From Clostridia bacterium (GTDB lineage Bacteria; Bacillota; Clostridia; Oscillospirales; Acutalibacteraceae), in the NCBI GenBank assembly GCA_017560255.1, contig JAFYOI010000055.1, forward strand, positions 1 to 64,000: a stretch of DNA of 64,000 nt, given 5' to 3'. A program made the translations under genes and the position numbers. The notes under the pieces were generated by a model. The model was given only the letters and a program-made list of their open reading frames with translations, made no database searches and was not told where the DNA came from. Below are positions 2,236 through 32,601 of the stretch, one piece after another. Position 1 is the stretch's first letter, and each line of letters opens with the position of its first letter.

Positions 2236-2355
2236 ATAACACAAGGGGACGGTTCTATGTCTGGGTAAAGACAGGGGACGGTTCTGCGTCTTGATAACCA
2301 GTCACTAAATTAAAGGTAAAGGGCGGTACACCACCGCCCTTTATTGATGCAATTT
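2236..2355 (+). repeat. GGGGACGG-type repeat, double copy with terminator-like hairpin
   Basis: Two GGGGACGGTTCT cores (near 2244 and 2274) are followed by a block that matches 5383-5467 at 83 of 85 positions (2271-2355). The block contains a perfect 10-bp stem (2318-2327 with 2333-2342). The form resembles the REP-like elements mobilised by Y1 transposases in Clostridia, but no transposase gene is in the window. Confidence 0.75.
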
Positions 2356-4208: not shown

Positions 4209-4454
4209 ATGAACATACTTGTAATTATTCTATATATTTTGGGGATTGTTTTTGATGTATTATACATTAATACAGATATATTTGCATTTCATGTTGTTTA
4301 TTGGATTATGATTTTTTTGGCCTGTGTTGGAGTTGTAGTAAATGCTGTTTTGTCGTATCGTAAAAAGAAAAATGTTTCCTCAGTTGAACAATTCAACTCT
4401 GAAAACACACAAATAGTGGACGATGAAAAGACAGAAAACACAGGGGACAGTTAG
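4209..4454 (+). CDS. Small membrane protein, candidate immunity for Rhs tip B
   Basis: This 81-residue protein has two hydrophobic segments (about residues 3-22 and 26-48) and a basic then acidic cytoplasmic tail. GGAG lies about ten bases before the ATG, and the gene starts 18 bases after the Rhs stop. A membrane immunity protein suits a tip with a hydrophobic region. The last residues (ENTGDS) are encoded inside a GGGGAC repeat copy, which also supplies the stop codon, so the natural C-terminus may have been replaced when the repeat inserted. The family is unrecognised and the role is inferred from position. Confidence 0.5.
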   Translation: MNILVIILYILGIVFDVLYINTDIFAFHVVYWIMIFLACVGVVVNAVLSYRKKKNVSSVEQFNSENTQIVDDEKTENTGDS

Positions 4455-4506
4455 AAAACAAAACACACAAATAAGAAAAGACAGGGGACGGTTCTCTGTG
4501 TTGATT
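4437..4506 (+). repeat. GGGGACGG-type repeat, double core
   Basis: Two cores (ACACAGGGGACAG near 4438 and GACAGGGGACGGTTCT at 4480) have the same layout as the pair at 2236-2300. The first overlaps the 3' end of the immunity candidate. The segment with the strong hairpin is missing here. Confidence 0.65.
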
Positions 4507-4582: not shown

Positions 4583-4957
4583 ACAAAACTTAATGAGGAA
4601 ACATATGGTTATGCGAGTGCGTGTATATATTTTTATAACAGTGTGGACGATGGCAAGGAGTTAGATATAAAACTTAAAGACGAATGGCAATTTGAAGAAG
4701 GAAAAATCTATATGTATAAAGGGATGGTATTACGTTTCGATGCCCCAGACAATATTAATTTTGGTTATTTAGGAGCTGCACTTTTCTCAAAAAGGATACT
4801 GATACCTTTCCCCAAAAGGATACTTTGTTTGGGCGCAGGTATTAATCAAGTTTTAAAGCCCAATGTGCCTCATGGGGATATATTTTCTTTTTTTGATGAT
4901 CCTAGGGACAATTTTATGATCAAATATGGTTATGGACTTTATATGGGGTGGTATTGA
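4583..4957 (+). CDS. Toxin tip fragment resembling polymorphic toxin type 44 (cassette C)
   Basis: The frame is open from 4568, directly after a repeat, with no normal start; a GTG at 4643 is the first usable codon and lacks a good ribosome site. The protein carries NINFGYLGAALF, then LGAGINQV, and ends with FFDDPRDNFMIKYGYGLY. The order GN/NFxxG, GAG and D-D-P-x-D-x-x-x-I matches what I know of the polymorphic toxin type 44 (Ntox44) family, predicted ribonucleases. Any Rhs core is gone, leaving an orphan tip. Two near-identical stretches 24 bases apart (4782-4800 and 4806-4824) add eight residues between the conserved glycine motifs and may disable it. Its stop codon overlaps the start of the membrane protein downstream. 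Confidence 0.6.
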   Translation, partial: TKLNEETYGYASACIYFYNSVDDGKELDIKLKDEWQFEEGKIYMYKGMVLRFDAPDNINFGYLGAALFSKRILIPFPKRILCLGAGINQVLKPNVPHGDIFSFFDDPRDNFMIKYGYGLYMGWY

Positions 4958-5406
4958 TGAAGATTAGCAATATATTAACAGGTATTATAGGTGGGGTACT
5001 CTTAAGTGTACCAGTTATGTATGTTAGTTATATTCCATATCTGGAATTTCAAAAAAATGAAATTCATCTTATGCTTTCTATATTTGCTGGCGCTTTGATT
5101 GTTGCATTCGTGCTTATTTATAAGAATAGTTCATTTAAATTTGCAGCTTTAAGAATGCTTGCTATGATGTTTTTTTGTTATGTGTTTATTCGTTTGTTGG
5201 CATATACGGGTGTTTTAGAAGCGATAAACAATTTTTTGCTTATACATGAAAACGAGGCAAGTAGCAGGGTGTCAGGTTTGGGTATGGTCTTTTTGTTTAT
5301 AACTATTTTATGCGAAAGTGCTATTATAGGAATTGTACTGTTGTTTAAAGAAAAGTTTTGGAAAAAGTCAAAAAAGGGACACACAGGGGACGGTTCTGTG
5401 TCTTGA
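4957..5406 (+). CDS. Four-helix membrane protein, candidate immunity for cassette C
   Basis: The ATG at 4957 overlaps the previous stop by one base (TGATG), so translation is probably coupled. An upstream GTG at 4948 is possible. The protein has about four hydrophobic segments and a basic tail (KEKFWKKSKK). Its last residues (GHTGDGSVS) are read from the GGGGACGG repeat, which provides the stop. Immunity proteins for cytoplasmic nucleases are usually soluble, so a membrane partner for a type 44 tip is unexpected. The pairing may be secondary, or the protein may be unrelated to the toxin. The family is not recognised. Confidence 0.45.
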   Translation: MKISNILTGIIGGVLLSVPVMYVSYIPYLEFQKNEIHLMLSIFAGALIVAFVLIYKNSSFKFAALRMLAMMFFCYVFIRLLAYTGVLEAINNFLLIHENEASSRVSGLGMVFLFITILCESAIIGIVLLFKEKFWKKSKKGHTGDGSVS

Positions 5407-5467
5407 TAACCAGTCACTAAATTAAAGATAAAGGGCGGTACACCACCGCCCTTTATTGATGCAATTT
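5383..5467 (+). repeat. GGGGACGG-type repeat with terminator-like hairpin, second long copy
   Basis: It differs from 2271-2355 at only two of 85 positions. The perfect stem is at 5430-5439 with 5445-5454. The copy overlaps and ends the upstream membrane-protein gene. Confidence 0.8.
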
Positions 5468-19870: not shown

Positions 19871-20908
19871 TTACGGTAAAACCACGAGCCATTTGAAAGA
19901 GTTGCACACCGCGTCGCCCAAAGGGTTTTCTATTGTTACAACGCTTACGTAGTCTTTAAAGTCTTCTATGCCGTTTTCGCGCTTTTCCCATTCGGACGTA
20001 TAGACCAAATAAATGATGTCGTCAATATTGTCGTAGTAAATTTGCATATCCCGTGCTTCAACAAGCGCACCGATTGTGTAGATGTTTTCGCCGTTTCTCC
20101 AGACGTTAATTATATGAGCGTCGCCATAATTACCCCTGTGGAAAAGGAAGGAATTGCCGAAAGTGAAAGAAATTTCGCCAAGTGTTAACCGTCGACACTC
20201 GAAAAACGAGTCTATTGGCTCTCCAAGATGATTTTTGAGCGGAGAGGGGAGTTTGCCCTTTATTTCTTTTGCAGATGATTTAAGGGCGTTTTCTTCAATT
20301 TTTCCACTGAATAAATTTGCTATGCACTGTGCTTTGCCGAATAAACTCTTGCCTTTGAGGTATTCCGATAAGTAGTTTTCGGCATCGTCAACTTTTCCGC
20401 ACTCGTATAATGAACGGTAATTTTCTATTATTTGGTTCATTTTTGCTTCGTGAGTGCTAAGCCCGATTGCAGATGATATCTCGTTTGAAATCTTGTCCAA
20501 ATCATTTACGCCCACGATATTTATGCACTGCTTTTCCTGTATATCTATTACCCAAGGCACTTTGTCAAACGGTACGGCCTTGTTGTCGATAGCATCCATA
20601 AGTACGACGTAAACCTTTTTGTCAAAAAACTCTGTCGCCATCTTGTACTCTTTTCTGACGTATGAATTGTCCTTAGACAGAATTCCGCTTGTAAAGAATA
20701 AAATCACACCCTGTGCATTTGCGAGTTTTTCCGAAATTTTAGGCTCCCATCCCTCACCGTATTCAATTCCGTGGTCGTACCAGAGAGGAATGTTGCTGTG
20801 AGCAAGCCTCTGTGTTATCGTTCCGACACGTTGTGCATCCTCATTGTTGTAACTGACGAAATAGTAGTTAGGTTTATCGCACGGTGTAAATCCAAGATAG
20901 TTTGACAT
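19871..20908 (-). CDS. TIR-domain protein
   Basis: Residues about 14-135 form a TIR domain: YYFVSYNNEDAQRVGTITQR (strand A and helix A), LWYDHGIEYGEGW (BB loop), ILFFTSG (strand C) and NSYVRKEYKMA, where E87 lies at the position of the catalytic Glu of NAD-cleaving TIR enzymes. The C-terminal 200 residues hold a helical stretch and then a mixed beta region that I do not recognise. Bacterial TIR proteins act in NAD depletion during phage defence, in signalling, or as secreted effectors. No signal peptide is present and no defence partner (Thoeris ThsA, STING, SIR2) adjoins it. It is a single-gene unit with its own promoter and terminator. Confidence 0.8.
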   Translation of the reverse strand: MSNYLGFTPCDKPNYYFVSYNNEDAQRVGTITQRLAHSNIPLWYDHGIEYGEGWEPKISEKLANAQGVILFFTSGILSKDNSYVRKEYKMATEFFDKKVYVVLMDAIDNKAVPFDKVPWVIDIQEKQCINIVGVNDLDKISNEISSAIGLSTHEAKMNQIIENYRSLYECGKVDDAENYLSEYLKGKSLFGKAQCIANLFSGKIEENALKSSAKEIKGKLPSPLKNHLGEPIDSFFECRRLTLGEISFTFGNSFLFHRGNYGDAHIINVWRNGENIYTIGALVEARDMQIYYDNIDDIIYLVYTSEWEKRENGIEDFKDYVSVVTIENPLGDAVCNSFKWLVVLP

Positions 20909-24976: not shown

Positions 24977-27739
24977 CTATGCTTTGAAATTATAAACGAA
25001 ATGCTGGTTTATGTATTTGCTTGTGGTTGCATCTCGCAGGTCAAAATAAAGCGTTGTGTCGTCTGCGGGGGTTGTGATGCTTATTGTCCATACGTAGTTA
25101 CCCGATGAGTTAACGGTGTATTTTGTGCTTATAGCAAGATTGTTGGCGGTTGTTTTCTGTGTGCCAACACGAAGCCTGCTGTAATTTCCTGCTGCTGTGA
25201 CAACGGTAAAAACTGTTTTGCTGCCGCTTTGTGTCGCATTCACAGATTTTATTGTGGTTTCGCTAAAATTTGAAACATCAAGTTTGTATGCATAGTGGTT
25301 TTCGATGTATTTGTTTGTTTCGGCATCGCGCAAATCAAAATATAAAGTATTGTTTTTGGTTGGCGCATCAATGCTTATTGTCCATACGTAGTCGCCCGAT
25401 GGGTTAACGCTGTATTTTGTGCTTACGGCAAGATTATCGACGAGATTTTTGTTAAGACCAACACGAAGTCTGCTATAATTTCCCGCCTTTGTAACAACCG
25501 TGAATACGATTTTGTCTTCGTTCTTTTTTGAATCAACAGATTTTATTACGTCATCCAGAACGTCAACGTTGTATTGATAAAATTTCTTTATATATTTGCC
25601 GCTTTCTGCATCACGTAAGTCAAAGTACAGAGTTGTACCTTCGTCTTGAGATGAAATAGATATAGTCCATACGTAATCGCCGTCATCATTGACCGTGTGA
25701 GCGGAAGTTACGGAAAGATTGTCGCTCAGTGTCTCAGACAGACCTACGCGGAGCCTGTTGTAATTTCCTGCTTCCGTGATAACTGTAAAATTAGTTTTTC
25801 CACCGGAAACAGGTGCGGAAACTGATTTTATAATCTTTGATTCTTCAACTGTAACGGTGTGATAGTAGTAGTCTTTCAAATATTTGCCACTTTCGTAACT
25901 TCTTGCATCAAAAGCGTACTGCGTAGTGGTTGCAGGCGCAGGGACTTTCATTGTCCATACGTAATCACCGTTTTCGTTTATTTCATAGTCGGAATCGTAT
26001 TTGATGTAACCCGCTGTGTCGTTTGCGTAGGTAACTTTAACTCTGTTTATTGTTGTTGAAGGGGTTGTTATAGTGAAAATGAGGTCGTCACCGACAATTT
26101 CAGAAGTGATTGATTTAAAAAGATTATCGTATTCTGTGACAATAGCAGGCAGTACGTTAACTGCGAAAGTGGCGCTTAATCCGCCGTAAGAAATCGTTAC
26201 GGTTGTTTCACCAATAACTGTAAAGGTTGTGGGGGAGTAGGTAAAAACAGTTACCGTTTCTTCACTGCCGTCGCTGTATTTAGCGGTAAGAACTAGTCCC
26301 GTAACGTTGAGGCTTTCACCCGTATAATATTCCGTTTTTGAAGGCGGAGCGGTAACGGCGAGTGATTCAAGCGTTTTCTCGACAGAAGCGATGAACTCAA
26401 CATAGTCAAGATGAACCCAACCTGAATAACCAAGATAAGTTGTTTTGCCCCACGTGCCTTGCATTTCAGTTATAACGAGTTCTGTATTATGGGGTATTGA
26501 AAAAATAACGGACGAGGAAGTTGAGGGTTCAGAGCGGAAATTCAACGCGGAATCGGGAGTGTTTACCCTGTACTTTCCAAGTGTTATTTGTTTCCACTGA
26601 GGCTCGAAAGTGAAAGTTTCCTCTTTTGTAACGTCATTAATCCAAGAGTCTTTGAACAAGATTTTTGTGCCAACCGTGAAAAGTGTTTTTTCATATCCGT
26701 TTTTGGTTATTTCGTCTTCGGTGTACCAGCCTTTAGAAGTAAACCATTTTCCGTCAGACTTTCTGTTAGCAAACCAGCCTGTAAAAGAGTAGCCTTCTTT
26801 TACATCAGCGCTACCGCTGACGGACAGGGTAGTTCCATAGTGTATTTCAATTGATGATGAATTGCTTGTGTTGTATTCAACAGTGTAGGTGAAAGGTTTA
26901 ATAAGTTCTGCAAAATCAAGTGAAACCCATCCCGAAACGTTGTTGTAAACGGTATAACCCCAGTTACCCTGAATTTTTGTTATTGTAAGTTCTGTTTTAT
27001 CGGGGATAGATGCAAGCACCACTGAAGATGTTGTCGGCTCTGAACGGAAGTTGAGGGTTGAAGAGGGGGTAGCCGTTTTATATAATCCAGGCGCTTTTGA
27101 AACGGCGCTGTTGTCTTCGGGAAATGCGTTATAGTAATTTGCGTAATAGTTGCAGTAGTAAACAGAGCCAAACAAACTTGCAAAATCGCTCCAACTGAGT
27201 GTTGCAAATTTTACCATACAGGTTTTACCCCAGTTGCAGTGGAGGAAAGTTACACCTTCGCTGTCTTGCGAAAGGTAAAGAATAGAGTGGTTAGAGAATC
27301 TGATGTGTGCACCGGGGTGCAATTTGTCTTTATTCTTCTGAAACCAATTCTTACAGTTTGTTGCCGTTGCGTTACTGTAACCCGATAATTCAACAAATTC
27401 GGGATTATACATTTCATGGAAACCAAATAGTTGATACTGTACCCAACGCACGTATCCGAGACACTGCCAGGCAAGTCCGAAATAACCGCAATCGTTACCG
27501 TAAGCGGTACAGGGTTTGTTTTTGTTTCCGTTGATATTATCGCCGCCGTCACTTACAAAGTAGTGTTTACCTGGAACGTACTCCGATACAACGTAGTCAA
27601 GCGCCGAAGCAATTGAAGCGTTGCTGGAATAATCACTTCCGGAGAAACTGAAATCACTTGCGGCGGATGCGGTTGATATCGGTAGAGAGGTTAATATGAT
27701 GAGTAAAATCAGGAGTATTGAGAGAAGTCTTTTATTCAT
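24977..27739 (-). CDS. Large secreted CHAP-like/SH3 cell-wall protein with four stalk repeats
   Basis: The ATG at 27739 follows AAAGGA and gives a clear signal peptide (about residues 1-27, ISTASAA). The 920-residue protein reads: a CHAP-like amidase domain (WQCLGYVRWVQ with Cys93 and SNHSILYL with His151, about 45-200), an SH3b domain (219-282), an InlB/Flg-type insert (284-385, EGYSFTGWF), a second SH3b (389-450), a bacterial Ig-like domain of group 3 type (457-530) and four copies of the 100-residue stalk repeat (540-920) also found at 1-1023. It probably cleaves or binds peptidoglycan outside the cell. No LPXTG or membrane anchor is present; SH3b domains may hold it to the wall. Confidence 0.85.
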   Translation of the reverse strand: MNKRLLSILLILLIILTSLPISTASAASDFSFSGSDYSSNASIASALDYVVSEYVPGKHYFVSDGGDNINGNKNKPCTAYGNDCGYFGLAWQCLGYVRWVQYQLFGFHEMYNPEFVELSGYSNATATNCKNWFQKNKDKLHPGAHIRFSNHSILYLSQDSEGVTFLHCNWGKTCMVKFATLSWSDFASLFGSVYYCNYYANYYNAFPEDNSAVSKAPGLYKTATPSSTLNFRSEPTTSSVVLASIPDKTELTITKIQGNWGYTVYNNVSGWVSLDFAELIKPFTYTVEYNTSNSSSIEIHYGTTLSVSGSADVKEGYSFTGWFANRKSDGKWFTSKGWYTEDEITKNGYEKTLFTVGTKILFKDSWINDVTKEETFTFEPQWKQITLGKYRVNTPDSALNFRSEPSTSSSVIFSIPHNTELVITEMQGTWGKTTYLGYSGWVHLDYVEFIASVEKTLESLAVTAPPSKTEYYTGESLNVTGLVLTAKYSDGSEETVTVFTYSPTTFTVIGETTVTISYGGLSATFAVNVLPAIVTEYDNLFKSITSEIVGDDLIFTITTPSTTINRVKVTYANDTAGYIKYDSDYEINENGDYVWTMKVPAPATTTQYAFDARSYESGKYLKDYYYHTVTVEESKIIKSVSAPVSGGKTNFTVITEAGNYNRLRVGLSETLSDNLSVTSAHTVNDDGDYVWTISISSQDEGTTLYFDLRDAESGKYIKKFYQYNVDVLDDVIKSVDSKKNEDKIVFTVVTKAGNYSRLRVGLNKNLVDNLAVSTKYSVNPSGDYVWTISIDAPTKNNTLYFDLRDAETNKYIENHYAYKLDVSNFSETTIKSVNATQSGSKTVFTVVTAAGNYSRLRVGTQKTTANNLAISTKYTVNSSGNYVWTISITTPADDTTLYFDLRDATTSKYINQHFVYNFKA
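24980..26122 (-). repeat. Four stalk-domain repeats in the CHAP-like protein
   Basis: The repeat units start with LFKSITSE, IIKSVSAP, VIKSVDSK and TIKSVNAT, and each contains NRxRV/SRLRVG, NxxGDYVWT and K-Y-x-x-x-x-Y. The unit length is about 95 residues. The layout equals that of the protein at 1-1023, though the sequences have diverged. Confidence 0.8.
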
Positions 27740-27802
27740 AACGTAATCCTTTCGTAATTGCGACAATATGGGTGGTATTTCTACAAAAAACATACAAGTA
27801 TA

Positions 27803-27831: not shown

Positions 27832-27876
27832 ATGTTTTTTACGATTTTTTTGATTGGAAATAGGGAGTTGTATAAT

Positions 27877-27905
27877 TTGCATTTTTCTTAATGAAGTGGT
27901 ATAAT
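27877..27905 (+). promoter_or_regulatory. Sigma-A promoter of the lipoprotein array
   Basis: TTGCAT (27877-27882) and TATAAT (27900-27905) are separated by 17 bases. A GGGGACGG repeat copy lies between this promoter and the first lipoprotein gene, so it would be part of the leader RNA. Confidence 0.7.
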
Positions 27906-27940
27906 TAAAAAGAACACATAGGGAAGCACATATTTCACGC

Positions 27941-27960
27941 TAACCGTCCCCTTGTGTTTT
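27941..27960 (-). repeat. GGGGACGG-type repeat core, inverted copy
   Basis: The minus strand reads AAAACACAAGGGGACGGTTA, matching the core at 2238-2256. It is in the opposite orientation to the copies at the far end of the lipoprotein array. Confidence 0.65.
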
Positions 27961-27992
27961 CTAATTTTGTTTGTGGTTTGGAGGATGAATAT

Positions 27993-28673
27993 ATGAAAAT
28001 CATAATTTCTAAGGTTATTGTAATTGTGTTGATACTTGCAGTTGTCCTAAATTGTGTGGCTTGCTCTAACATAATTGGGCAAGCGGAGAAAGAAAATGAT
28101 GCTGCATCCCAAGACCAAGCAAAAGAACAAAAGATAAAATATGTAGAAGACTATATGAAGGAAAAATTTCCTAAAGATGTTAGTTTTAGCGTAGAAAAAA
28201 TTTCACAAGAATCAGAGTGTTATGTTGCAGAGGTAGATGTGTATACTGCAACATCGGGCTTTATTTATGAAAATGTCGCATGGATTACGGTTTGGGTGGA
28301 TAACGAAGGCAACATAATCGATGATTATTTTTTGGTTGATTTCAATGACGATATATCAAGTTATTTTTCATTGATCGCGAGGGAAGAAATTCCAAATTGC
28401 GTAGTTTATGTTGCTCCTCAGTTCAGAAATATGCCTACAAAAGAGTGGGATATTTCTCAGGATAATGTTGAAGAAATGATCAAAACAGAAGATATGTATT
28501 ACTTTATAAACATATACATAAATGATTCCGACAAGGCTACACAGGATAATATAAATAATTTATCAAGTAAATTTAGCTTTTGTAATTCGAAACTGACAGT
28601 CTACAACTGTGATTATTATGAAAATGGTAAGGATAGCGCCATAGAGTATGAAGTTATAATAAACAAAAAATAA
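27993..28673 (+). CDS. Lipoprotein of a local paralogous family, member 1
   Basis: The ATG at 27993 (GGAGGA nine bases upstream) is preferred over the longer frame. A signal peptide ends in the lipobox CVAC, so Cys21 would be lipidated and the 200-residue domain exposed outside the membrane. Shared family features are a helical start (IKYVEDYMKEKF), a W-I-T-V-W-V-D-N-E-G-N strand, a CVVYVAP region, a PTKEWDI turn and a late FSFCNSKLTVY strand. Members 2 and 3 follow at 28712 and 30601. The function is unknown. The repeats bounding the array resemble those around the Rhs immunity genes, so an immunity role is conceivable but unproven. Confidence 0.65.
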   Translation: MKIIISKVIVIVLILAVVLNCVACSNIIGQAEKENDAASQDQAKEQKIKYVEDYMKEKFPKDVSFSVEKISQESECYVAEVDVYTATSGFIYENVAWITVWVDNEGNIIDDYFLVDFNDDISSYFSLIAREEIPNCVVYVAPQFRNMPTKEWDISQDNVEEMIKTEDMYYFINIYINDSDKATQDNINNLSSKFSFCNSKLTVYNCDYYENGKDSAIEYEVIINKK

Positions 28674-28711
28674 TTTTATATTTTTGTGATTTTTGTGAGG
28701 TGAAATTATAT

Positions 28712-29383
28712 ATGAAAAAATATATTTTAAAGAGCATAGCATTAATAATGTTATCGATTATAGTGTTTAATTTTTCTGGATGTTCTGTTTTTGAAAACAC
28801 ACCTGAAAACGACTCATCGTATTCTTCTATGACACCCCAACAGAAACAAAAACATGTTGAAGCATTTCTTCTAAAAAAATATGGACAGTATTATTATGTT
28901 GATTTTGTCGATAGTGAGAAAACAGGTTGTTTTAAAGTGATAAGAGATGGTTATACGGGTTATATTAAGGTATGGTGTGACGATTATGGTAATGTAATAG
29001 ATGGTAAGTTTTTAAATGATTTAGCTGACGAAATAAAAAGCACCATAGAGTCTGTTGTGAAGACAGAAATAGACGAGTGTATTGTTGATGTAAATTGTAG
29101 AGATTTAGAGAAGAAACCAACAAAATTGTGGACAGCTTCTGATGACATGAAAGAGTTGCTTTTAAAGGAAACCTTTGATGTTTACATAAAGGTTTTTGTA
29201 AGTGAATCGGAAAATGTTACAGACGATACACTGAATACGCTGATTGAAAAACTTGATTTCTGCGAAGGAAAATTGCATGTGTATATTTGCAAAGATTTAG
29301 ATGATTTAAATACGGACAGTTATAATTATTCTTCTGCGGATTATGTAGAAGCGATAAAAAAAGATGACAGTTATTTTAATTAA
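28712..29383 (+). CDS. Lipoprotein of a local paralogous family, member 2
   Basis: The ATG at 28712 follows GAGGTG; the GTG at 28700 overlaps that site and is rejected. The lipobox is FSGC. The mature domain parallels member 1: KHVEAFLLKKYG, IKVWCDDYGNVIDG, DECIVDVN, KKPTKLW and FCEGKLHVY occur in the same order. It lies 38 bases after member 1 and 28 before the DUF5104-like gene, so all four array genes are probably co-transcribed. I do not recognise a named domain. A lipidated extracytoplasmic protein is well supported; the role is not. Confidence 0.65.
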   Translation: MKKYILKSIALIMLSIIVFNFSGCSVFENTPENDSSYSSMTPQQKQKHVEAFLLKKYGQYYYVDFVDSEKTGCFKVIRDGYTGYIKVWCDDYGNVIDGKFLNDLADEIKSTIESVVKTEIDECIVDVNCRDLEKKPTKLWTASDDMKELLLKETFDVYIKVFVSESENVTDDTLNTLIEKLDFCEGKLHVYICKDLDDLNTDSYNYSSADYVEAIKKDDSYFN

Positions 29384-29411
29384 GACGGAATAATAAGGAT
29401 GGGGCGATTAT

Positions 29412-30533
29412 ATGGTTTTAATTAATAATTTAAAGATCAAAAAAGTTGTGGTTATTTTAATTATTATAATTCAAATTTTAACTTTGACCTCGTGTGTTGA
29501 AACAGAAGGTAGTATCAGAAAATATGTTGACAACACAGTAGAGCGAATATTCACATCGATAAAGAATGATGACAAAGAGATGTTTGGTAATTTGTTTTGT
29601 AAAGGTGTAAGAAATGACGATTTTACTGGCGACATTGACAAATTATTTGAACATATTTCTGGCGATGTAATTTCGTATGAATTTGATGGGTTAATCAACC
29701 AAGGGCGGACTCAACAGGATGGCAGTACAGAGATTGTTGCATCGACTAATTTTACTCTCTGCACAAGCACGAATGAATATTACATAGGCATTCGTGTATA
29801 TCCGCGAAATGATTTTGATGAGAATAAGGTTGGTATAGAGTGTTTTTCGATTATAGATACCTATGACTGGAATTACGATTATCGATACGGAGCACACAGG
29901 GAGAATAGGGGAATTTATATTGATTTGGGCTATACTAAACTTTTTGCTGTCTCTGAAGCGGACGATAATAGGGATTTTATAAATGAAATTTCAGGATTAG
30001 TAGAAAGAAACAACACTTGTGTAAACAAAATGTTTATCAATGATAGTTTGCCATATGAAAAAACGAACATAACTGATGAGTACGCTTTGGTGAATTCTGA
30101 TGATTTTAAAACTTTGGATGATATTAAAAGTATTTTGAACATTACCTATACTGGCGATGTTGTGAACAGTCTGATTGATGGAACTGACGGTAAGCCACAA
30201 TACAAAGAGATTAATGGTAAATTGTATACTCTCGTCAGAGAATTTGATGAGATAAGCCAATGGAGTAATTTTATTATTGAGAGTTATTCTCTCAAAGAAA
30301 TCTGTGAATTTTCAGTATTGGCTCAGTATCAGTTCCAGGATGGTGCAGATGTAATCGTTAGATACACATACAAGGCGGTATATGTTGATGGTCAATGGAA
30401 ACTTGATGAAATTGTCAGCGATTACAGGATGGTTGGAAAAGGCACTATCGAAGATAATAGTGTAATGATTGTAGGCCATATGGAAGGTGAAAAAATGAAA
30501 GGTTATAGGCCTGATGAGTGTTACAAAAAATAA
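29412..30533 (+). CDS. DUF5104-like lipoprotein
   Basis: The signal peptide ends in the lipobox LTSC, followed directly by SIRKYVDNTVERIFTSIKN and DKEMFGNLFCK...IDKLFEHISG. This is the pattern I associate with DUF5104 domains of Firmicute lipoproteins. The rest (to 373 residues) holds a second alpha/beta domain of NTF2-like appearance (VIVRYTYKAVYVDGQWKLDEI). It sits between members 2 and 3 of the paralogous lipoprotein family. GGGGCG precedes the ATG. Function is unknown; the DUF assignment is from memory and needs a profile search. Confidence 0.6.
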   Translation: MVLINNLKIKKVVVILIIIIQILTLTSCVETEGSIRKYVDNTVERIFTSIKNDDKEMFGNLFCKGVRNDDFTGDIDKLFEHISGDVISYEFDGLINQGRTQQDGSTEIVASTNFTLCTSTNEYYIGIRVYPRNDFDENKVGIECFSIIDTYDWNYDYRYGAHRENRGIYIDLGYTKLFAVSEADDNRDFINEISGLVERNNTCVNKMFINDSLPYEKTNITDEYALVNSDDFKTLDDIKSILNITYTGDVVNSLIDGTDGKPQYKEINGKLYTLVREFDEISQWSNFIIESYSLKEICEFSVLAQYQFQDGADVIVRYTYKAVYVDGQWKLDEIVSDYRMVGKGTIEDNSVMIVGHMEGEKMKGYRPDECYKK

Positions 30534-30600
30534 AGATATGCTTTTCCATGTTGTTTACTTGACAAATAAAAACAAGTGCAATAATTAAGGGGGATCATTG

Positions 30601-31353
30601 ATGAAAAAGATATTGAAGATGATAACTTCTGCTATTATTTGCTGTGTGATTATATTTAGTTGTACGGGGTGCTTTTCTAGCCCCGATATCACACAACCGG
30701 AATTTAACTTTTTTGAGCTTTCCCAAGAAAAAAGAAATGAATATGTATTAAATTATTTAGAAGAAAAATACGACGAAGAATATGAAGTTTTACATGATGT
30801 ACAGCAAGTTCAAGAAACGATTTATTCTTTGACTGATTATTGCACAGGCTCTGTTGTTCCTAAATCTAAAGCAAATATAGAAATAAGTTCATTTATAGAT
30901 ATTTCTAATCGATGTAGGGAAACAATTTATGTATGGGTTGATAAAAGTGGTGATATAACGGACAGCGCTTTTCTAAGTGAGTTTCAAGAAGAATTTCACG
31001 AAATATACTGCGATATACTCAAAGAAGTTTACCCTGAGTGTGTTGTGTATAGTGCCACGGCATTGTCTGCTTCGCCTGATAAAACTTGGCAACGGGGAGA
31101 GGACGCAAGGAAACTGCTTGAGACGGAGTATGTCTATGCAACAATAGATGTTGTTGTAAACAAATCCGATGAAATGACAAATGAAGAATTTCTTGCATTG
31201 TCAGATGCTATAGATTTTTGCGCAGGTAATATAACTGTATATGAGGTGGACGATATCAACAATATTGATGAAAATGGCTTGAGTATGACTAAAATAAACA
31301 GTAAATATGAAAGACGGTTACCATTGTATAGATACGGGAAATATGATATGTAA
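30601..31353 (+). CDS. Lipoprotein of a local paralogous family, member 3
   Basis: The ATG at 30601 is eight bases after GGGGGA; the TTG at 30598 is a longer option. The lipobox is CTGC. The mature part repeats the family order: SQEKRNEYVLNYLEEKY, ETIYVWVDKSGDITDS, PECVVYSATAL, SPDKTW and DFCAGNITVYEV. It carries an insertion near residue 75 absent from members 1 and 2. A degenerate GGGGACGG repeat starts shortly after the stop codon and closes the array. Confidence 0.65.
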   Translation: MKKILKMITSAIICCVIIFSCTGCFSSPDITQPEFNFFELSQEKRNEYVLNYLEEKYDEEYEVLHDVQQVQETIYSLTDYCTGSVVPKSKANIEISSFIDISNRCRETIYVWVDKSGDITDSAFLSEFQEEFHEIYCDILKEVYPECVVYSATALSASPDKTWQRGEDARKLLETEYVYATIDVVVNKSDEMTNEEFLALSDAIDFCAGNITVYEVDDINNIDENGLSMTKINSKYERRLPLYRYGKYDM

Positions 31354-31365
31354 TTTTATAAAAAT

Positions 31366-31450
31366 AAAACACAAGGTGACGCTTCTCCTGTGTTGACAAG
31401 TAATCACTAAACTAAAAAAAGACAGGGGAAGGTTCTGTGTCTTGACGTAT
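31366..31450 (+). repeat. Degenerate GGGGACGG-type repeat after the lipoprotein array
   Basis: Two altered cores (ACACAAGGTGACGCTTCT and GACAGGGGAAGGTTCTGTGTC) flank AGTAATCACTAAACTAAA, which corresponds to the GTCACTAAATTAAA spacer of the copies at 2271 and 5383. The strong hairpin is absent. A further fragment (CACAGGGTGA) follows near 31460. Confidence 0.6.
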
Positions 31451-31520
31451 TAATTAAGTCACAGGGTGAATTTTTCCTCTGTTGCTTTACAACCTACAAT
31501 GAGTTTAAAAAACAAACGAA

Positions 31521-31550
31521 AAAAGGCATCTTCCGTGGAAGATGCCTTTT
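31521..31550 (-). terminator. Terminator of pilT
   Basis: A perfect 14-bp stem (31521-31534 with 31537-31550) is followed on the minus strand by a T-rich run. Confidence 0.8.
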
Positions 31551-31557
31551 AAACTTT

Positions 31558-32601
31558 TTAATACATAATTCTTCTTGAGGAGTTGAAAGCGTACGTTTCC
31601 TCGGTATGTTTGGAGATTTTACCCTCCATAGACAATTTTTTGAGGTAATCATCCATAAGAATCATACCATCCTTACGTCCGTTCTGGATCATTGCGTCAA
31701 GCATATGAGTTTTACCTTCTCTGATGAGGTTTCTGACCGCATAGTTCTTTGTCATAATCTCAAATGCGGGAACTCTGCTCTTCCAGGTGAGAGAGGGTAC
31801 AAGTTGCTGATAGATAACCGCTTCCAATACGCTTGCAAGTTGCGCTCTGATCTGCTGTTGCTGGTATGAGGGGAATACGTCGATAATACGGTCAACCGCG
31901 TTTGCAACACCCATTGTGTGAAGTGTTGACAGTACGAGGTGACCTGTTTCAGCGGCCGTGATAGCGGTGCTGATTGTTTCGAGGTCACGCATTTCTCCGA
32001 TAAAGATAACGTCGGGATCCTCTCTGAGTGCGGCTTTGAGTGCACTAGCATAGTTTTTGGTATCCTGTCCGATTTCTCGCTGGTTTATCATTGATTTGTG
32101 GTGAGTGTGGAGGAACTCGATGGGTTCTTCCATTGTTATGATGTGAGCGGAACGGTTTCTGTTAATGGCATCAATAAGTGTTGCAATTGTGGTTGTTTTA
32201 CCACTACCCGTCGGGCCTGTGACGAGGATAAGACCTCTCTGCTTTTTGTAAAGATTAATTACGGTGTCGGGAATGCCGATGTCAATCGGGTTTGGAATCT
32301 CGGAGTTAACGGCACGCATCGCCATTGTGTAGTATCCCATTCTTATGTATACGCTGACACGGTATCTGAGGTCGCCGGAATTGTAGGAAAGGTCAACTTC
32401 ACCTTTCTGGTTGAGTTTTTCAAGCCATACGTCGTTCAAAACTTGCTTTGCGAGTTGCTCGGCTTTTTCGGGCGTGACGGTGGGAAATTCAAGGTCAATA
32501 AGTTGACCTGCAACTCTTGCTTTAGGCGGAAGACCAACGGTTATATGAACGTCGGATGCCTTTTCTTTATGTGCTGCTTCAAGTATTTTGTTAATATCCA
32601 T
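31558..32601 (-). CDS. pilT: PilT-type twitching motility ATPase
   Basis: This 347-residue AAA+ ATPase has the PilT N-terminal domain (ASDVHITVGLPPKARVAGQL), Walker A in LVTGPTGSGKTTT near residue 128, the Asp box REDPDVIFIGEMRD, the His box STLHTMGV and an AIRNLIRE-like motif, here AVRNLIREGK. PilT retracts type IV pili. No pilin, PilB or PilC genes are nearby, so the pilus is encoded elsewhere or the protein serves another secretion system. It is monocistronic with its own promoter and terminator. Confidence 0.92.
   Translation of the reverse strand: MDINKILEAAHKEKASDVHITVGLPPKARVAGQLIDLEFPTVTPEKAEQLAKQVLNDVWLEKLNQKGEVDLSYNSGDLRYRVSVYIRMGYYTMAMRAVNSEIPNPIDIGIPDTVINLYKKQRGLILVTGPTGSGKTTTIATLIDAINRNRSAHIITMEEPIEFLHTHHKSMINQREIGQDTKNYASALKAALREDPDVIFIGEMRDLETISTAITAAETGHLVLSTLHTMGVANAVDRIIDVFPSYQQQQIRAQLASVLEAVIYQQLVPSLTWKSRVPAFEIMTKNYAVRNLIREGKTHMLDAMIQNGRKDGMILMDDYLKKLSMEGKISKHTEETYAFNSSRRIMY

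Follow-up and report, generated by a model that had tools for sequence, protein, structure and literature searches.

A low-G+C operon of candidate immunity lipoproteins bordered by REP-like repeats in a genome of the Acutalibacteraceae

This study concerns a block of four lipoprotein genes, bordered by copies of a short repeat, that lies near 28 to 31 kb in the genome of a Clostridia bacterium of the family Acutalibacteraceae (GenBank assembly GCA_017560255.1, contig JAFYOI010000055.1). The window analysed is the opening 64 kb (positions 1 to 64,000) of this 370-kb contig; the genome (1.96 Mb, 98% complete, 61 contigs) is the sole representative of its genus among the genomes compared. Homology, together with the lipase and DUF4474 genes in the neighbourhoods of distant homologues, makes it rather probable that the four genes are an operon for lipoproteins with an orphan immunity role, and thereby supports the suggestion of the initial annotation that these may be immunity proteins against toxins of kin. 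The repeats at its two ends are best read, from their sequence and its distribution, as elements like repetitive extragenic palindromes (REPs), dispersed by REP-associated tyrosine transposases (RAYTs).

The four genes are colinear on the plus strand, have signal-peptide-like starts and are separated by gaps of 38, 28 and 67 nt; they form one operon. Paralogy links gene 1 to genes 2 and 4 (with 31% and 28% identity to it), and all three have Cys24 in common after a hydrophobic start, the lipoprotein signals being assigned by eye, without a signal-peptide program. Gene 3 scores over the Pfam cut-offs of both PF17117 (DUF5104; 51 bits) and PF16800 (IseA endopeptidase inhibitor; 33.2 bits, cut-off 29.9), a combination that a scan of three further DUF5104 proteins did not show. 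The paralogy, the shared Cys24 and the PF17117 score confirm the initial annotation's description of three paralogous lipoproteins and one DUF5104 lipoprotein between the repeats. The G+C content of the four genes is 30–34%, against 41–45% for the flanking genes, which encode an SH3/Big_3 wall protein (24977-27793, minus strand, divergent) and a PilT-like ATPase (31558-32601, minus strand).

Homologues of the paralogues were looked for beside toxin genes, and were found upstream of lipases in 8 of 15 loci. In a search blind to context, a profile built from the window proteins only matched a genome of another genus (G030; E = 2.1e-6), where a type VII locus encodes two of the lipoproteins together with YukC, an Mbeg1-like lipase and a protein of 1453 aa whose sequence was judged EssC-like by eye. 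With this and wider profiles we compiled a census of 22 homologous genes in the 15 fetched loci, from 13 genomes; weak matches that lie mainly over the signal peptide (G876, G955 and G823, and in one search most of its 27 genomes) and a short match at G858:C4 were left out. A lipase gene or fragment lies directly downstream on the same strand for 12 of the 22 genes (7 of the 13 genomes). Nine of these 12 lipases score over the PF11187 cut-off, and the other three (two fragments and that of locus L155) were assigned by alignment, profile or likeness only. The adjacent lipases are Mbeg1-like, with GHSxG and motifs such as VYRGTG and GHSKGG; the lipase domain comes first and is followed, where the protein is complete, by a long helical C-terminal part. 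Proteins of WXG100 size with WxG motifs were seen by eye near several of the loci. Because the wider profiles contained two lipase-adjacent sequences, we also made a separate comparison between a window-only and a lipase-adjacent-only profile: hhalign matched the three mature domains of the window to the set of 12 at a probability of 96.6% (E = 6.8e-10), over 154 columns of the mature domain. One genome (G922; L150 and L151) carries two near-identical cassettes of lipoprotein and lipase, with truncated extra copies and transposase-like open reading frames (ORFs) around them.

Among 391 genomes of the class, 36 have the DUF5104 domain of gene 3, and 30 loci were inspected, one being the window itself and the other 29 being counted. 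Seven of the 29 (L167, L170, L171, L172, L174, L175 and L190) have a DUF4474 domain within about 1.5 kb, which in L190 is part of an LXG protein and in L175 part of a protein whose end is Rhs-type; Rhs fragments occur at two more loci (L168 and L169). This adjacency suggests a role for DUF5104 lipoproteins as the immunity partners of DUF4474 toxins. Homology to toxin-paired genes extends to the block's paralogues and to gene 3 alike. In the literature collection searched, the terms DUF5104 and DUF4474, and Mbeg1 combined with type VII, lipase and immunity, returned no paper.

The proposed action of the lipoproteins is modelled on that of TilA against TslA in Staphylococcus aureus. The mature proteins would be lipid-anchored outside the membrane, where the paralogues would bind the incoming phospholipase toxins of competitors before these act, and where the gene 3 product may likewise bind incoming DUF4474-type toxins. 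The three paralogues may have diverged to cover different toxin variants, and the block may have been acquired from toxin-carrying relatives. Orphan immunity genes without cognate toxins, which the block's genes may likewise be, occur in the acquired interbacterial defence islands of Bacteroides; those islands, described in 2019 by Ross, reportedly act against type VI toxins and carry a recombinase, whereas no recombinase was seen here. Another parallel is provided by the TilA/Lpl (DUF576) arrays of S. aureus. According to PMC10730906, the TilA gene directly precedes that of a type VII-secreted lipase whose lipase domain comes first, an arrangement shared by distant homologues of the paralogues, and tandem toxin-less copies exist, to which the block's paralogues may correspond. 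The block differs from these arrays in that the paralogues have no Pfam match, and in that its own genome has no lipase found and no EssC above the cut-off. PMC9484751 reports orphan immunity genes of type VII systems, as well as tandem recombination between such genes.

Several observations weigh against an immunity function. The paralogues match no Pfam family at E <= 0.1, and hence not DUF576, the TilA family; their identity to the lipase-adjacent members in the profile comparison is low (14%). No lipase lies next door for 10 of the 22 genes (7 of 15 loci, 6 genomes: G098 twice, G477, G383, G480, G216 and G765), and those of G098 and G477 are close to the window set. Three of the genomes, G098, G477 and G480, yielded no lipase at all. 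DUF4474 domains are shown by only 7 of the 29 DUF5104 loci, and none was found in the window, L009 or L076, the only stretches of this genome searched for it. The AlphaFold model of paralogue 2, made with the other two, is of middling confidence (predicted local distance difference test score 70), and Foldseek found no match to it in the PDB at E <= 0.001. A second structural comparison ranked 4gl6, a DUF5037 protein, first (Z 7.4, root mean square deviation 8.6, 176 residues aligned), tied with unrelated chains, and nothing was concluded from it.

On the toxin side, the organism's own genome has no lipase match at E <= 0.01, the window has no lipase gene, and the EssC family model, whose cut-off is 778 bits, scores 120 bits at best in the genome, a value consistent with an FtsK-like protein. 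No convincing match came from comparing sequences with solved structures, viral contigs contained no relative of the paralogues, and a search of genome contigs with the window-only profile gave no match. Gene 3 has no relative in viral contigs or phage records.

As 7 of the 15 loci have no adjacent lipase, and three genomes with homologues yielded none at all, a role outside toxin immunity is possible. The lipoproteins could be general cell-envelope proteins, involved in ligand binding or in IseA-like control of wall hydrolases, of which type VII lipase loci recruited members secondarily. Single genes in apparently housekeeping neighbourhoods (6 loci), the IseA-like domain in gene 3 and the SH3-domain protein encoded divergently next door all agree with this alternative, which we regard as possible and a good deal less probable than immunity. 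Tandem divergent paralogy, low G+C and a patchy distribution (matches in 6 of 394 and 11 of 391 genomes) each fit immunity genes better than housekeeping genes.

The repeat itself is a palindrome with the loop GGGGACGGTTCT common to all copies, between arms that are variable yet complementary. We modelled it with a covariance model of 38 copies (10 from this genome and the rest from relatives), from which the block's own three copies were left out. Double changes occur in all seven of the seven stem pairs, and 69 cells are changed on both stem sides, as against 31.5 in shuffles. A search of the whole genome, in which 150 of 495 first-look candidates were scored, gave 12 matches at E <= 0.06. 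Every one of them is on this contig, and they fall into three clusters: 2.2–5.4 kb (an Rhs toxin locus), 27.9/31.4 kb (the block) and 342.8–346.6 kb.

At the block, the second right copy is the clearest (E = 5.1e-7 genome-wide, 1.6e-8 for the window alone), followed by the degenerate first right copy (0.0063 and 2e-4) and the left copy (0.059 and 0.0093). Despite its weak score, we take the left copy as real because it has an exact 21-mer in common with a copy of the third cluster, at L009:~9484; its variant form, with GGTTAGCG after the core, is also present in two other genera. These copies bear out what the initial annotation had proposed from the letters, namely an inverted core at the left end, a double copy on the right and the same repeat at the ends of the Rhs-locus genes (Table 1). 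A third degenerate right-hand copy near 31457 was rejected: it has 12 of 25 matches, a level reached by 11% of shuffles, and is absent among the window matches at E <= 10.

A covarying palindrome, and Y1 transposase genes between inverted copies in relatives, are the grounds for calling the repeat REP-like. With one mismatch allowed, the core pattern occurs in 39 of 200 genomes of the family; as a control, the reversed pattern gave a single match each in G023 and G148. One relative (G040) has 76 core-pattern matches, several of them in tandem at 20 bp, which form an amplified repeat array. In three fetched loci from three other genomes (L112, L113 and L115), two inverted copies some 0.8 kb from each other enclose an intact gene for a Y1 (IS200-like) transposase. 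In this genome RAYTs were found as decayed remnants only, with no intact gene: the third cluster has a truncated remnant between two inverted copies (69% identical to the L115 protein, 155 aa), and there is a split Y1 match on contig C7.

Both the short covarying palindromes, with mostly intergenic copies, and the inverted pairs around a Y1 transposase gene resemble the REP/REPIN (REP doublet forming hairpin) and RAYT (TnpAREP) systems as they are described in PMC8266576 and PMC6006769. The repeat differs from the REPs described there in that it lacks a conserved GTAG foot and its conserved part is the loop, and in having few copies in this genome, grouped in three clusters, two of which are, on separate evidence, toxin/immunity loci. 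No GT[AG]G was found at the stem foot, where the flanking columns of the copy alignment are without conservation, and the element is therefore filed as REP-like rather than as a canonical REP. Atypical REP classes without a GTAG foot are on record, as reported in PMC6006769.

The initial annotation took the inverted flanks as signs of a composite mobile unit, in which the four genes would be moved together, with the inverted copies for ends, by some single-strand transposase such as a RAYT. The inverted orientation, the low G+C of the genes, the RAYT remnant elsewhere in the genome and the RAYT genes between inverted copies in relatives accord with such a unit. We consider it very unlikely and not supported, since neither the block nor its immediate surroundings yielded a transposase: in the window no protein matched RAYTs below E = 0.4, and there is no other transposase among the block genes. 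The RAYT pairs of relatives lie about 0.8 kb apart as against 3.4 kb here, the left copy is a divergent variant that lies downstream of the promoter-like site and not at a proven junction, and published REPtrons, according to PMC6006769, do not appear to transpose as a unit. In the two remaining clusters most copies have the same orientation as the genes, so that a single inverted copy is weak evidence, and inverted copies of a dispersed element are to be expected around an operon now and then.

A REP-like origin through RAYT dispersal would account for the repeats with no need of a composite transposon. The copies that border the block look like debris of a small jumping element rather than proof of movement as a unit, and they may have settled at both operon ends as they may have done after the Rhs-locus genes and in the 342.8–346.6 kb cluster. 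The order of the flanking genes was not comparable in relatives, since the PilT-like gene has at most 55% identity there and none of 29 PilT loci (about 1.5 kb on each side) adjoins SpoIVA, LigA or the wall protein. On the best reading, the block is an accessory region of low G+C, and the repeats are its marks, not transposon ends. That the repeats are instead regulatory, kept as RNA hairpins of the 5' and 3' untranslated regions (UTRs) that stabilise or attenuate the operon message, agrees with their placement, on the left after the promoter-like site and ahead of gene 1, on the right after gene 4 and ahead of the terminator-like hairpin, and is very unlikely because the block's copies are degenerate and this genome's other copies occupy varied positions, some of them inside gene ends.

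The third cluster (L009:7823-11546, on the same contig) appears as a further orphan-immunity cluster, with the RAYT remnant and small lipoproteins. One of its genes is a paralogue (31% identity over 187 aa, E = 9e-22) of window gene 1624-2223, which follows the Rhs toxin end, and upstream of this paralogue is a remnant that resembles the end of that toxin (38% identity, 55 aa, E = 1.5e-4). On evidence other than the repeats, then, two of the three clusters are toxin/immunity loci. A repeat copy lies behind most L009 genes, and in several it codes the last residues of the ORF. Such repeat-coded C-termini of small ORFs (window 4440-4503 and 5379-5406; L009 9077-9120 and 9519-9545), with ends such as KTENTGDS, KKGHTGDGSVS and KTGNG, indicate that repeats replaced gene ends.

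Among the 23 genomes with at least two core matches, the 19 REP loci with places listed gave an Rhs match in 5 cases, against 0 of 17 control stretches (Fisher p = 0.047; two of 19 controls did not exist, one had only 683 bases, and the Rhs queries came partly from the same genomes). With 14 of 19 loci lacking an Rhs match the link is weak, and proximity to Rhs was rejected as a general rule; the modest excess keeps open that the repeats help shuffle such loci. A broader conjecture, which we hold to be improbable, is that RAYTs and REPs prefer polymorphic toxin/immunity loci in this family and act as recombination handles, gathering immunity cassettes for Rhs, LXG and type VII lipase toxins into REP-marked defence islands of cells without toxins or secretion systems.

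Table 1. Positions of the genes, repeat copies and other signals in the window.
Feature	Position	Strand	Basis or remark
Sigma-A-like promoter (TTTGCA/TTGCAT, TATAAT, TG before -10)	27876..27905	+	10/12 matches
Left REP-like copy, variant with GGTTAGCG after core	27910..27963	-	presumed 5' UTR; core 27942-27954
Lipoprotein paralogue 1 (gene 1), TilA-like immunity candidate	27993..28673	+	homology, profile comparison
Lipoprotein paralogue 2 (gene 2), TilA-like immunity candidate, structure modelled	28712..29383	+	homology, profile comparison
Gene 3, DUF5104 + IseA-like lipoprotein, candidate immunity to DUF4474-type toxins	29412..30533	+	Pfam, neighbourhoods
Lipoprotein paralogue 3 (gene 4), TilA-like immunity candidate	30601..31353	+	homology, profile comparison
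Right REP-like copy 1 (degenerate)	31363..31397	+	covariance model
Right REP-like copy 2	31413..31447	+	covariance model
13-bp stem-loop, candidate terminator shared by block (+) and PilT-like gene (-)	31521..31550	.	
Two REP-like copies after Rhs-locus gene 1624-2223	2243..2296	+	covariance model
REP-like copy after ORF 4209-4454, Rhs locus	4472..4506	+	covariance model
REP-like copy coding last residues of ORF 4948-5406	5374..5408	+	covariance model

The promoter-like site is the joint best among 17 sites; shuffles lead one to expect 20.3 such sites, so that it is merely suggestive. Transcription from both sides could end at the stem-loop between the block and the PilT-like gene. Elsewhere in the window, ORF 19871-20908 encodes a TIR-domain protein (PF13676 over the cut-off), a possible defence or signalling gene, and the ORF at the window start (1-1023) has, by eye, the same kind of repeat unit (GDYVWT...-like) as the flanking wall protein.

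The three paralogues and their relatives thus represent a candidate, and testable, lipoprotein family, distinct from the DUF576 proteins of staphylococci, that would give immunity to type VII lipase toxins, and gene 3 points to a candidate pairing of DUF5104 as immunity domain with DUF4474 as toxin domain. For the organism, the block would be a case of lipoprotein self-defence retained in a cell that lacks the weapon and, so far as the searches show, the ATPase for its secretion.

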